A DNA stretch of 56,525 nt, from positions 1-56,525 of the forward strand of contig DASTFB010000097.1 of assembly GCA_035709005.1 (NCBI GenBank), read 5' to 3'. Position 1 is the first letter of the stretch. Every line of letters begins with the position of its first letter. Below, in pieces: positions 25,649 through 29,955 of the stretch. A program made the translations under genes and the position numbers. A model generated the notes under the pieces. That model was not told where the DNA came from. It saw only the letters and a program-made list of their open reading frames with translations, and ran no database searches. This DNA is from Candidatus Methylomirabilota bacterium. Its GTDB lineage: Bacteria; Methylomirabilota; Methylomirabilia; Rokubacteriales; CSP1-6.

Positions 25649-26823
25649 GCCGGCTCCCTGCCGTAGATCATCACGACGTGCTCGCCCATGCCGCTGTTGT
25701 TGTGGGTGAGCCCGATGGCGGCGTCCGGCACCTGACGCGGGCCGGCCTGGCCGCGCAGCTGCAGGAAGATCTCGGCGGCCTGGGCGACGCCGGTGGCCCC
25801 CAAGGGATGCCCGCAGCCGATCAGGCCGCCGCGCGGGTTGACCACGACATCGCCGCCGTCGTCGCTTCGCCTGGCCGCGATGAACGGCCCGGCCTCGCCC
25901 TGGTCGCAGAAGCCGAGCTCTTCGTAGGCGATGAGCTCGGCGATGGCGAAGCAGTCGTGCACCTCGGCCACGTCCACGTCCCGGGGGCCCACCCCGGCCA
26001 TACGATAGGCGGCCTGCGCGGCCCGCTCGAGGGCGGGCCAGCGCGCCAGATCGTCGGGCAGCGAGCTGAGCTGGAAGCCGTCGAGGGCCTGCCCGGTGCC
26101 CCGGATCCACACGGGACGGTCCGTGAGATCCCGCGCCCGCTCGGCGCTGGCCAGGACCACCGCGGCGGCGCCGTCGGTGATCGGTGAGCACATGAACAGA
26201 CGCAGCGGGCTCGAGATCATGCGGGAGCACAACACCTGGTCGAGCGTGGCGCCCTTCTGGAAATGGGCGTTGGGGTTGCGGGCGGCATGGGTATGGTTCT
26301 TGACCCCGACCAGCGCCAGCTGCTCCTCGGTCGTGCCGTAGCGCATCATGTGGCGCTGGGCGGCCAGCGCGAAGCACGGCGGCGCGGTGAGACCGAAGGC
26401 GGCTTCCCACTCCCGGTCGACCCCCGTGCCCATGTTGAGGATGGCCTCCTCGCCCGAGGGCTGATTCAGCTTCTCGACGCCCAGGACCATGACGAGATCG
26501 GCGAGGCCGGCGGCGATGAAGGCGTAGGCGTAGCGGATGCCCACGGTGCCGGAAGCGCACATGTGCTCGGTGCGCGCGCTCAGCGCGCTGGGCCGGATCC
26601 CCAGCGCCTCGGCGGCCAGCGAGGCGATGTGACTCTGGAACGCCGTCCGTTCCGGCAGCACCGAGCCCACCACCAGCCCCTCGAGGTCGCGCGGACGCAG
26701 TCCGGGGACGGCGTCGAAGCAGGCCTTGCCGGCTTCCCAGATGAGCTCCCGGAAGCTCGCCCGGCGGACGCCGAACTTGCATACCCCCGCGCCGACGAGC
26801 GCGACCCCTCGCGAGGCGCTCAC
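25645..26823 (-). CDS. Thiolase family protein, SCP2/lipid-transfer type
   Basis: 392 aa acetyl-CoA acetyltransferase-like enzyme. The acyl-accepting Cys89 is in EHMCASGTVGI; EVHDCFAIAELIAYEELG is the SCP2-thiolase form of the central His motif; CGHPLGATG carries the other His-Cys region. It could cleave a 3-oxoacyl-CoA or, with DUF35, act as a retro-aldolase as in steroid side-chain breakdown. Overlaps the dehydrogenase stop by ATGA. I favour thiolysis because all cysteine and histidine motifs are present. Confidence 0.92.
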   Translation of the reverse strand: MSASRGVALVGAGVCKFGVRRASFRELIWEAGKACFDAVPGLRPRDLEGLVVGSVLPERTAFQSHIASLAAEALGIRPSALSARTEHMCASGTVGIRYAYAFIAAGLADLVMVLGVEKLNQPSGEEAILNMGTGVDREWEAAFGLTAPPCFALAAQRHMMRYGTTEEQLALVGVKNHTHAARNPNAHFQKGATLDQVLCSRMISSPLRLFMCSPITDGAAAVVLASAERARDLTDRPVWIRGTGQALDGFQLSSLPDDLARWPALERAAQAAYRMAGVGPRDVDVAEVHDCFAIAELIAYEELGFCDQGEAGPFIAARRSDDGGDVVVNPRGGLIGCGHPLGATGVAQAAEIFLQLRGQAGPRQVPDAAIGLTHNNSGMGEHVVMIYGREPA

Positions 26824-27980
26824 GCGAATACCTCGGCGCGATCCCAGTCCAGCTCTCGCCCGATCACGATGCGGAGCATCTCCGACGTCCCGCCCCCGGG
26901 CAGCAAGAAGCGGGCGTCGCGGAAGTAGCGCTGGGCCGGATACTCCATGGCCAGCCCGTACGAAGCGAAGATCCGGGCCGCCTCGTCGGTCACCCGAACG
27001 GCCATTTCCGAAGCGAAGAGCTTGGCCATCGCCGCCTCGCGGGCGACCGGACGCCGCCGATCGATGGCGCCCGCCGCCTGATAGGTCATGAGCGCCGCCC
27101 CGTGGAGCGAGGTGAGCATGTCGGCCAGCTTGAAGGCGATCGCCTGGTGCTCGACGATCGGCTTGCCGAAGGCGACACGCTGGCGCGCGTAGGCCAGGGC
27201 CGCCTCGTAGGCGGCCCGGGCCAGGCCGACAGCGAGGGCGGCCGTCATGACCCGGATCTCGGCCAGGATGGTGCCGATCTTCTCCACGCCTCCGCCCTCG
27301 CCGCCCAGCAGGTGCTCGGCGGGCACCTCGACATCGTCGAGGAGGATCTCGCCGGTCTCGGAGGCCCGCACGGACATCTTGTCGATCGTCTTGCCCAGCG
27401 TGATCCCTCGCATGGTGGCACGGTCCAGCAGGAACAGGGCGATGTTTCCCAGGCCCCGCTCCGGCGAGGTCTTGGCGGCGACGGTCAGGACGTCGGCGAC
27501 GGGCGCGTTGGTGACCCAGGTCTTGGCTCCGCGCAGTACCCAGCGATCACCGCGGCGCTCGGCCCGTGTCGCGAGGTTGGCCACGTCCGAGCCGGCGCCC
27601 GGCTCGGTCAGCGCGAACGTCGCCACCAGATCACCGCGCAGGGCGGGCACGAGATAGCGCTGGTGGAGCGCCTGAGACCCGTAGCGGTAAACGAAGTAGG
27701 TGCCCATCAGCGATTGCATGGCCACCGCCGCCGCCAGCGAGAGCGAGCCCCGGGCCAGCTCCTCCGCGAAGAGACAGTACGTCACCATGTCGGCCTCGGC
27801 GCCCCCGTACGGCTCGGGGTAGCGCAGGCCGAAGTAACCCAGCTCCCCCACCCGCTTGAACAGCGTCATGGGGAACTGGGCGCGCTCGTCGATGGCGTGG
27901 GCCTGGGGCACGACCTCGGCGTCGACGAAGCGCGCCACGGCGCGGCGAAAGCTCTCTTGCTCGGTAGTAAACCGGATCAT
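26820..27980 (-). CDS. Acyl-CoA dehydrogenase, isovaleryl-CoA-dehydrogenase-like active site
   Basis: 386 aa FAD-dependent acyl-CoA dehydrogenase. LTEPGAGSDVANLATRAERR and GAKTWVTNA form the middle domain; ASYGLAMEYPAQRYFRDARF the C-terminal one. The usual catalytic YEGT Glu is missing (LLPGGGTSEMLR). Glu241 in AEIRVMTAALAVG lies where isovaleryl-CoA dehydrogenase keeps its base on another helix, which suggests a branched substrate. ATG 27980 overlaps the stop of the small repeat ORF by 4 nt; no ribosome site is obvious, so translational coupling is plausible. Confidence 0.93.
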   Translation of the reverse strand: MIRFTTEQESFRRAVARFVDAEVVPQAHAIDERAQFPMTLFKRVGELGYFGLRYPEPYGGAEADMVTYCLFAEELARGSLSLAAAVAMQSLMGTYFVYRYGSQALHQRYLVPALRGDLVATFALTEPGAGSDVANLATRAERRGDRWVLRGAKTWVTNAPVADVLTVAAKTSPERGLGNIALFLLDRATMRGITLGKTIDKMSVRASETGEILLDDVEVPAEHLLGGEGGGVEKIGTILAEIRVMTAALAVGLARAAYEAALAYARQRVAFGKPIVEHQAIAFKLADMLTSLHGAALMTYQAAGAIDRRRPVAREAAMAKLFASEMAVRVTDEAARIFASYGLAMEYPAQRYFRDARFLLPGGGTSEMLRIVIGRELDWDRAEVFA

Positions 27981-28192
27981 TGTAGCGGGGTCCGCGAGAC
28001 CAGCTCGGGGCGTGGGTGGCCTGCCCTAGGTGCGTGTGGCTGCGTCCGTTGTAGCGGGGGCCGTGAGGCCGGCTCGGGGCGTGGGTGGGCTGCCTTGGGT
28101 GCGTGTGGCTGCGTTCGTTGTAGCGGGTGCCGCCAGCCCGGTTCGAGCCGTGGGTGGGCTGCTCTAGGCAGGTGTGGCTCCGTCCGTTTCAC
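27977..28192 (-). CDS. Candidate 71-residue His/Pro/Arg repeat protein
   Basis: The ORF consists almost entirely of three 23-residue repeats of pattern RT(E/Q)PHxPxAxHPRxExxxRxPLQ, each with two conserved histidines. The GTG start overlaps the hyuB stop as GTGA (28189-28192) and its TGA overlaps the next ATG as ATGA (27977-27980), exactly like bona fide genes of this operon. It is very basic and without a membrane segment. No family is recognised. It could instead be a non-coding 69-bp repeat whose period happens to keep a frame open; the double coupling argues for coding. Confidence 0.4.
   Translation of the reverse strand: MKRTEPHLPRAAHPRLEPGWRHPLQRTQPHAPKAAHPRPEPASRPPLQRTQPHAPRAGHPRPELVSRTPLQ
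27981..28187. repeat. Three tandem copies of a 69-bp repeat
   Basis: Units begin at 27981, 28050 and 28119 with TGTAGCGGG and end CTGCGTCCGT or similar; the period is exactly 69 in both steps. Units 1 and 2 are the most alike; unit 3 has drifted. The repeat fills the whole gap between hyuB and the acyl-CoA dehydrogenase gene and is in frame with the 71-residue ORF on the minus strand. Confidence 0.85.
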
Positions 28193-29955
28193 CGATTGAT
28201 CTTCTTCTGTATCTTCTGCTGCTGCTTCTGCTTTCTTTTTTGTCTCAGGGTGTGGGTGGCGGGCTCGTCCACGCGCAGGTCGGGGCCGGTGCCGGTGATG
28301 ACCACGGCGTAGTCGGCGCGGGCCGACGCTGGCGACACGAGCTCTTCTCGCACGTCTTCGAGGACCTGGGCCGGGTCGCGCTCGAAGGGATCGCCGTAGC
28401 CGCCCGCCCCGGGCTGCTGGAAGGAGACGACGTCGCCGTAGCCGAAGTCACGCGACTCCTTGCCGTGCACCACGACTTCGTCGGGCCCCGGATTGATCAC
28501 GGTGCGGCCCAGCGCGCCGGGCCGGCCGCCGAACAGCCCCCAGGCGGGAATGCGCTGTCGGTCCGTGAGGTTGGTGAGCTTGCCGTCGTCGGCCAGGAAG
28601 CGCAGGTCCCGTCGGATGCCGCAGCCGCCCCGGAACTTGCCGGCGCCGCCCGTGTCGCGGATGAGCTCGAAGCGCTCCACGACGATCGGGTGGCGCGCCT
28701 CCTGCGCCTCCACCGGAATATTCGCGGCATTGAAGGCCCAGGCCATCGCCTCGCACCCGTCCTTGGTGGCGCGGGCCCCCGTGCCCGAGAGAACCAGCTC
28801 GTAGGCCACGAAGCGGCGCCCGCGCCCACGGTCCCAGCCGCCGAAGGTCGGGTTGGCCATGTGGGAGGCCGCCGCCGCCACTCGCTCGGGCAGGGCCGGG
28901 GCCAGCGCGCCCAGCACGGCCTCGAAGATCCGATAGCAGATGAGCGCGCGCGGCCCGCCGCCGGCCGGCGGGCGCGGGTTGAGAAACGAGCCCTCCGGCG
29001 CCGAGACCGTCACCGGGCGGAACGCGCCCTCGTTCATCGGCCCCAACGGATCGGTCAGGCACTTCACCGCCGCATAGGAGTAGGAGCGCGTGTAGTTGAT
29101 GTAGGAGTTGAGTCCCGAGGGCGTCTGCGGGCTGGAGCCCGCGTAGTCGACGGTGATGGCGTCGCCCTCGACCGTCACGGTCACGCACACCCGCAAGGGA
29201 TCGGTCCCGGGCCCCCAGTCGTCGAGGAAATCCTCGAAGGTGTAGCGGCCGTCGGGGATCGCACGGACGGCCGCCCGCACGCTGGCTTCCGTCCGCGCGA
29301 GGATCTGCTCCATGGCCGCCGACAGCACGGCGCGCCCGTACCGCTCCACCAGCTCCTGCAGCCGCAGCTCGCCCACCCGCAGCGCGCTGCGCTGGGCCCG
29401 GAGATCGCCCAGCACCTTGTCCGGCGTGCGGGTATTCGCGGCGATGAGGCCGATGACGGCCTCGTCCTCCCGGTACTCGCGCCACACCCTGGTCGGCGGG
29501 ATCCGGAGGCCTTCCTGGTGATAGTCGAAGATGCCGACCACGCCCTGGCTGCCCGGACGCTGGCCTCCCACATCGGTGTGGTGAACGATGTTCACGACGA
29601 ATCCCACGAGCTCCCCACTCGAGAACACGGGCTGCGTGATGAAGAAGTCCGGGAGGTGACCGGAGCCGAGCAGCGGGTCGTTCAGCAGCACGCCGTCCCC
29701 CGGGCGCAGCGTCTCGAGCGGGTGCGCGGCCAGGGCGTGGCGCACGGCGAAGGACATCGCGCCCATGTGTCCCGGTGAGTAGGGCCCCTGGGCCACCATG
29801 CGCCCGGCCGGGTCGAAGACCGCGACCGAAAAGTCCTGCCCCTCGCGCGCCTGCTCGGAGTAGGCGGTCCGCTGGACGGCCGTGCCGATCTCCACGGCGA
29901 TGGACTGCAGCGCCCCCCACACGACACCCAGGGTGATGGGATCGAGCGCGGTCAT
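28189..29955 (-). CDS. hyuB: Hydantoinase B/oxoprolinase family protein (HyuB)
   Basis: 588 aa beta subunit of an ATP-dependent amidohydrolase or carboxylase of the N-methylhydantoinase/5-oxoprolinase/acetophenone carboxylase group. MTALDPITLGVVWGALQSIA, RTAYSEQAREGQDFSVAVFD, NDPLLGSGHLPDFFITQPVF, HHTDVGGQRPGSQG and DTGGAGKFRGGCGI are diagnostic. The last 20 residues are an unusual Lys/Gln/Arg tail (RQKRKQKQQQKIQKKINR) encoded by a locally AT-rich, purine-rich tract. ATG 29955 overlaps hyuA by 4 nt. The frame is open for 94 more codons upstream within hyuA without similarity. Confidence 0.95.
   Translation of the reverse strand: MTALDPITLGVVWGALQSIAVEIGTAVQRTAYSEQAREGQDFSVAVFDPAGRMVAQGPYSPGHMGAMSFAVRHALAAHPLETLRPGDGVLLNDPLLGSGHLPDFFITQPVFSSGELVGFVVNIVHHTDVGGQRPGSQGVVGIFDYHQEGLRIPPTRVWREYREDEAVIGLIAANTRTPDKVLGDLRAQRSALRVGELRLQELVERYGRAVLSAAMEQILARTEASVRAAVRAIPDGRYTFEDFLDDWGPGTDPLRVCVTVTVEGDAITVDYAGSSPQTPSGLNSYINYTRSYSYAAVKCLTDPLGPMNEGAFRPVTVSAPEGSFLNPRPPAGGGPRALICYRIFEAVLGALAPALPERVAAAASHMANPTFGGWDRGRGRRFVAYELVLSGTGARATKDGCEAMAWAFNAANIPVEAQEARHPIVVERFELIRDTGGAGKFRGGCGIRRDLRFLADDGKLTNLTDRQRIPAWGLFGGRPGALGRTVINPGPDEVVVHGKESRDFGYGDVVSFQQPGAGGYGDPFERDPAQVLEDVREELVSPASARADYAVVITGTGPDLRVDEPATHTLRQKRKQKQQQKIQKKINR

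Follow-up and report, generated by a model that had tools for sequence, protein, structure and literature searches.

The operon considered here raises a simple question: what is the open reading frame of 71 codons, built of three repeats, that lies between a hyuB gene and an acyl-CoA dehydrogenase (ACAD) gene and overlaps both? The operon, the hyuA of which corresponds to PF01968 in Pfam, lies in a window of 56,525 nt (the whole stretch of DNA that was analysed, contig DASTFB010000097.1) from a Candidatus Methylomirabilota bacterium. Its relevant features, in order of transcription, are:

28189..29950, minus strand: hyuB (Hydantoinase_B), the upstream gene, start approximate (PF02538 over 28192-29790; tblastn to relatives)
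28187..28206, minus strand: leader of the array (...ATCAATCGGTGAAACGG), taking in the final hyuB codons and the hyuB stop (printed flanks)
28189..28192, minus strand: GTGA, in which the hyuB stop TGA (28191-28189) overlaps the GTG of the ORF (28192-28190) (sequence, ORF list)
27977..28192, minus strand: ORF of 71 codons, GTG start and TGA stop, with three repeats in one frame (ORF list and the relay trace described below)
28118..28186, minus strand: repeat unit 1, core 28183-28118 (repeat alignment)
28049..28117, minus strand: repeat unit 2, core 28114-28049 (repeat alignment)
27980..28048, minus strand: repeat unit 3, core 28045-27980 (repeat alignment)
27977..27980, minus strand: ATGA, in which the stop TGA of the ORF (27979-27977) overlaps the ACAD ATG (27980-27978) (sequence, ORF list)
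26820..27980, minus strand: ACAD gene, downstream (PF00441, PF02770, PF02771; orthologues)

The ORF list and the repeat alignment confirm the original prediction of three 69-bp repeats within a 71-codon ORF, and the sequence bears out both of the overlaps that it described, with the hyuB stop and with the dehydrogenase start. The three units are arranged head-to-tail with identities of 100, 88 and 80%. Just ahead of the array, at 28205-28245, hyuB ends in a low-complexity Lys/Gln tail (KRKQKQQQKIQKKINR), encoded on a CTG/CTT-rich stretch, which differs from the hyuB ends in relatives.

Using the raw DNA of the array as query, we found 27 further matches in the same genome, and a profile search, the counts of which are minima, recovered at least 46 copies there and at least about 50 to over 100 copies in each of several relatives. 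The profile also places the repeat in 40 of 57 genomes and 16 of 24 genera examined from this Rokubacteria family. In the 38 genomes examined from the phylum's other families no copy was found, and a plasmid collection gave no match. The unit is about 66 bp long and arrays hold 1 to 5 copies; 32 aligned copies from the genome of the window, on which the profile was built, have a mean column identity of 83% and share the invariant core CAG.CCACCC.CG, in which a single G/C position varies. A leader like that of the window array (ATCAATCGG..GA) also stands ahead of other copies, for example at L016, L017, L031 and L048. The orthologues nearest to the ACAD of the window come from Candidatus Rokuibacteriota, which places the host among the Rokubacteria and not the mycobacteria. 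The ORF is made up of a short mobile DNA repeat in three head-to-tail copies, a repeat that one family of soil bacteria carries by the dozen per genome; since the unit recurs genome-wide beside unrelated genes, the ORF is not a gene specific to the hyuB-ACAD operon.

Within the same family, fourteen genomes from several genera are free or nearly free of copies; either the element disappeared from these genera or it never spread in them. A subfamily, found at five loci, has the ends AATGAGCGACGC...ACAAATGA, and at two of these loci (L181 and L187) the left end recurs in the sequence beyond the right edge (ATGAGCGACGC).

The genes behind the copies of the window's own genome are mutually unrelated (CDP-alcohol phosphatidyltransferase, DUF445, radical SAM, ABC transporter and glycosyltransferases), and the position of the copies follows a preference. 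Of 114 arrays, 95 have a co-directional coding start between -10 and +120 nt relative to the right edge, often exactly at it, and the repeat points the same way as the adjacent genes. Immediately past the right edge, 59 of 104 terminal copies have a stop codon (45 TGA, 9 TAA and 5 TAG), which is mostly part of the ATGA or GTGA at which the following gene starts. The shortest form, seen for example at ten loci, is ATGANGCC...CTACA ahead of ATGA, with an ORF of 22 codons and 4-nt overlaps at both sides. Many arrays are without an overlap at one end or have an unclear neighbouring gene (39 unclear in a first set of arrays and 33 in a second). At five loci the copy is followed by a Shine-Dalgarno-like AGGAG motif and a start 10-13 nt further on, without a 4-nt overlap; coupling has perhaps been replaced there by an own ribosome site. 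One own-genome copy (L026, 940-1035) adjoins what appears to be the 3' part of a tRNA on the opposite strand, not a protein gene.

The original prediction had seen in the translated product a His-rich peptide that could bind metal inside a cobalamin/metal-enzyme operon. A functional small protein of this kind, for the hydantoinase/ACAD operon, would agree with a real ORF, with overlaps that are conserved at the hyuB-ACAD junction and with the regular pattern of His, Arg and Pro, but the repeat precedes unrelated genes, ten orthologous junctions do without it and its codon changes are neutral. The synonymous excess of a conserved small protein is lacking: in the frame of the peptide, synonymous changes make up 31.0% of single codon changes, where neutrality predicts 31.2% (0.310 versus 0.312). 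Codon-position entropy likewise gave no third-position excess and no coding signature, and the peptide has no match in Pfam. Because the peptide shows no more conservation than neutral change would leave, metal binding is unsupported, and we consider a functional small protein very improbable; conservation lies in the DNA element, not in the peptide.

According to the original prediction, homologous operons should vary in repeat number but hold the frame and both overlaps if the ORF is translated, and a plain short junction in relatives would speak against it. At the hyuB-ACAD junctions of nine other species the element is present in one or two copies, either as an insert of 82 to 277 nt or with read-through of hyuB, and an open frame joins hyuB to ACAD in nine of nine, so that copy number indeed varies while the frame and both overlaps are held. 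In six of them the way from hyuB to the ACAD start is bridged, with 4-nt overlaps, by a separate ORF or pair of ORFs (57, 29, 34, 94, 59 and 2+51 codons); at one of these junctions (L050) the bridge joins an in-frame GTGA that lies 3 nt inside the ACAD start as aligned. In the other three the hyuB frame itself runs on through the element as far as the original ATGA. Plain short junctions do occur, in the form of a bare 4-nt overlap (ATGA or GTGA) at ten orthologous junctions in as many species, yet they represent sites that the mobile insertion does not occupy and are no evidence against the ORF. Four more distant or rearranged junctions have neither the 4-nt overlap nor the element.

Other empty sites are clean. 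Genome G030 carries a 65-bp unit between CTCGCGCG and ATGACGG, whereas in its congeners G003, G031 and G032 CTCGCGCG or CTCGCGCA runs straight into ATGACGG with no unit. A second G030 unit stands ahead of ATGAGCAAATTC, and in four homologous loci of congeners ATGAGCAAATTC directly follows the upstream gene. Both comparisons correspond to a 65-bp insertion exactly ahead of ATGA that restores both 4-nt overlaps, and neither neighbouring protein changes, since the upstream stop and the downstream start are identical with and without the unit. At a third site GTGA stands in the empty congener, and the filled site is flanked by ATGA on the left and GTGA on the right; this single case suggests that the element carries its own ATGA instead of duplicating its target.

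Within genomes, the nearest neighbour of a copy is a copy of the same genome in 82 of 125 cases, against 25 after shuffling, which fits repeated transposition within lineages, with gene conversion as an alternative. Should the array of the window be an ordinary local tandem duplication, or an ancestral feature of the junction inherited vertically and not a mobile element, tandem copy number could well vary at the hyuB-ACAD junction as it does. The repeat is genome-wide, however, its empty sites in congeners are clean, and the window copies are up to 91% identical to own-genome copies elsewhere but at most 82% identical to copies at the hyuB-ACAD junction loci of the other species compared; such an origin is hardly credible.

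The frame itself is maintained across arrays. We traced a relay by stepping over 4-nt or 1-nt overlaps from the upstream stop to the downstream start, and found that it reached this start in 40 of the 45 arrays that have overlap-type ends, in 8 of the 40 via upstream read-through; with phase randomised and inserts shuffled, 300 runs gave a mean of 8.8 and a maximum of 16. A second set of 62 loci, mostly from genomes not used before, was traced with an alternative in-frame downstream start accepted and read-through cases set apart, and gave 15 complete relays in 20 against a null mean of 4.6 and a maximum of 9 (400 runs). As the copies are related, these figures overstate the number of independent events. 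The landing on both junctions exceeds chance, for which about 9 complete relays in 45 are expected. In arrays with a stop at the right edge, an open frame that starts at or near the upstream stop was found 31 times in the frame ending at the right-edge stop and 5 times and once in the others. Tandem spacing was 0 mod 3 in 30 cases (fused ORF), 2 mod 3 in 18 (ORFs overlapping by 4 nt) and 1 mod 3 in one. About a third of the clear arrays are without a relay, and about 30 to 35% of the first set and half of the second were unclassifiable, the gene calls being made by a simple codon score and not by a trained gene finder. The further suggestion that the ORF acts as a coupling spacer holds as an inference from sequence, in view of nine junctions out of nine and of relays far above the phase-randomised null.

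These data also bear on the possibility that the repeat is an element of DNA or RNA placed before starts, such as a regulatory site, a transcript stabiliser or a REP-like sequence, and that the ORF is a by-product of stop-poor, GC-rich sequence. That the DNA and not the peptide is conserved would suit such an element, as would the fact that frames in sequence of this composition often stay open (31 and 18 of 44 in the control frames), but it does not account for a phase between overlaps that is kept far above the null despite varying insert length. Nor did the RNA level offer support: there is no Rfam family, single folds are no better than shuffles, and the consensus fold of the repeat has 2 pairs at -0.07 kcal/mol, with no conserved RNA structure or palindrome. 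We judge this explanation unlikely. A promoter at the right end, where the sequence TACAAT resembles a -10 box, was weighed by sequence and set aside because the ATG falls inside this hexamer.

As regards the means of movement, no Y1 transposase was found in the window's own genome, and PF01797 is absent from genomes G000, G003, G004, G005 and G008; two genomes lacking the element (G002 and G006) do have Y1 transposases. A REP/RAYT system was rejected on the absence of a conserved imperfect palindrome and of a Y1 transposase in the own genome. The terminal inverted repeats typical of MITEs were not seen either, as the unit ends ATGANGCC and CTACA are not inverted on inspection and are without conserved pairing. 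A search for a longer autonomous version gave 113 left-half matches without a right half within 80 nt; those listed resembled diverged right halves or tandem copies, with no clear split element among them.

The reading that we favour, with a probability of about 0.8, is that of a MIRU-like miniature mobile element of Rokubacteria whose mini-ORF would keep translational coupling intact. A 65-bp cassette, ATGANGCC...CTACA, would insert in one orientation directly ahead of the D-TGA stop/start overlap of an operon, and its left ATGA would take over the overlap for the upstream gene, leaving stop and protein unchanged. The 22-codon ORF of the cassette would end at the original TGA, still overlapping the original downstream start, so that coupling could survive by a terminating ribosome re-initiating twice through 4-nt overlaps. 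Tandem amplification would follow, giving one fused ORF (3 x 69 nt in the window) or a chain of ORFs overlapping by 4 nt, and the decay of some copies would let the upstream gene read through to the same TGA. Dispersal, choice of site, clean empty sites and a maintained frame are observed. We infer that ribosomes ending the upstream gene would re-initiate in the mini-ORF and then at the downstream start; the element would thus probably pass the ribosome on to the next gene, insertion would be non-polar and tolerated, and the constraint on frame would presumably reflect the need to avoid polar effects on the gene downstream.

MIRUs, widely known as markers for typing tuberculosis strains, raise the questions of how they move and whether their ORFs serve coupling; DTGA sites have reportedly also been proposed by Supply et al. 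as MIRU targets. Both questions can be approached by comparison with a second family from a different phylum, which has copies by the dozen in a genome, clean empty sites in congeners and a measurable frame constraint. This family also speaks for 4-nt overlaps as places where mobile DNA lands repeatedly. A single orthologous junction already provides natural spacers of 29 to 94 codons for the range of relayed re-initiation. There is about an even chance, in our estimate, that the repeat forms a selfish class with no relation to the MIRUs of mycobacteria and has evolved on its own to target stop/start overlaps, by means of a copy of the overlap (ATGA) at its left end, every insertion sparing both proteins and their coupling; if so, an uncultured phylum would supply ribosome-relay spacers as a set that is naturally replicated across whole genomes. 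In the literature searched we found nothing on such repeats in Rokubacteria and no MIRU-like elements outside mycobacteria, the sole "MIRU-like" match being a Trichodesmium species name.

Among known repeats, REP/BIME sequences with RAYT are likewise short, dispersed, intergenic and present in many copies per genome, but the Rokubacteria repeat is without a conserved stem and its own genome without a Y1 transposase. To our knowledge, start-codon positioning is not a REP trait. The beta-proteobacterial repeat element BRE (about 90 bp, up to 29 copies) is also intergenic and in some cases overlaps ORF ends, whereas the accessible part of its description mentions neither targeting of start/stop overlaps nor a coupled ORF (PMC3110155). 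Between rnc and fpg1 of M. tuberculosis a repeat array of varying length ends at the start codon of fpg1, as the present arrays do at that of the following gene; in other species only a few bases separate rnc from fpg1. That array differs in organisation, with units of 55 and 79 bp, and its length correlated with mRNA level (PMC2734929).

The closest likeness is to the MIRUs of mycobacteria, described in the accessible part of a 2025 review (PMC12548453, citing Supply et al. 1997) as dispersed repeats of 40-100 bp with varying tandem copy number, apparently mobile, that insert at start codons and carry an ORF coupled at -4 nt, which probably limits the effect on the gene. The Rokubacteria repeat has tens of dispersed and partly tandem copies (about 66 bp, at least 46 in the own genome, 1 to 5 per array), is inserted at start codons or stop/start overlaps and co-oriented with genes (95 of 114 arrays), and holds an internal ORF that, as judged from sequence alone, would be coupled at -4 nt (in 40 of 45 and in 15 of 20 of the arrays whose ends are of overlap type). 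It differs in that upstream read-through and chains of mini-ORFs overlapping by 4 nt are common, neither of which that part of the review describes for MIRUs, and in its host, Rokubacteria instead of mycobacteria. By this analogy, which is one of description and not of sequence and which crosses phyla, the repeat appears to be of the same kind as the MIRUs, both functionally and anatomically.
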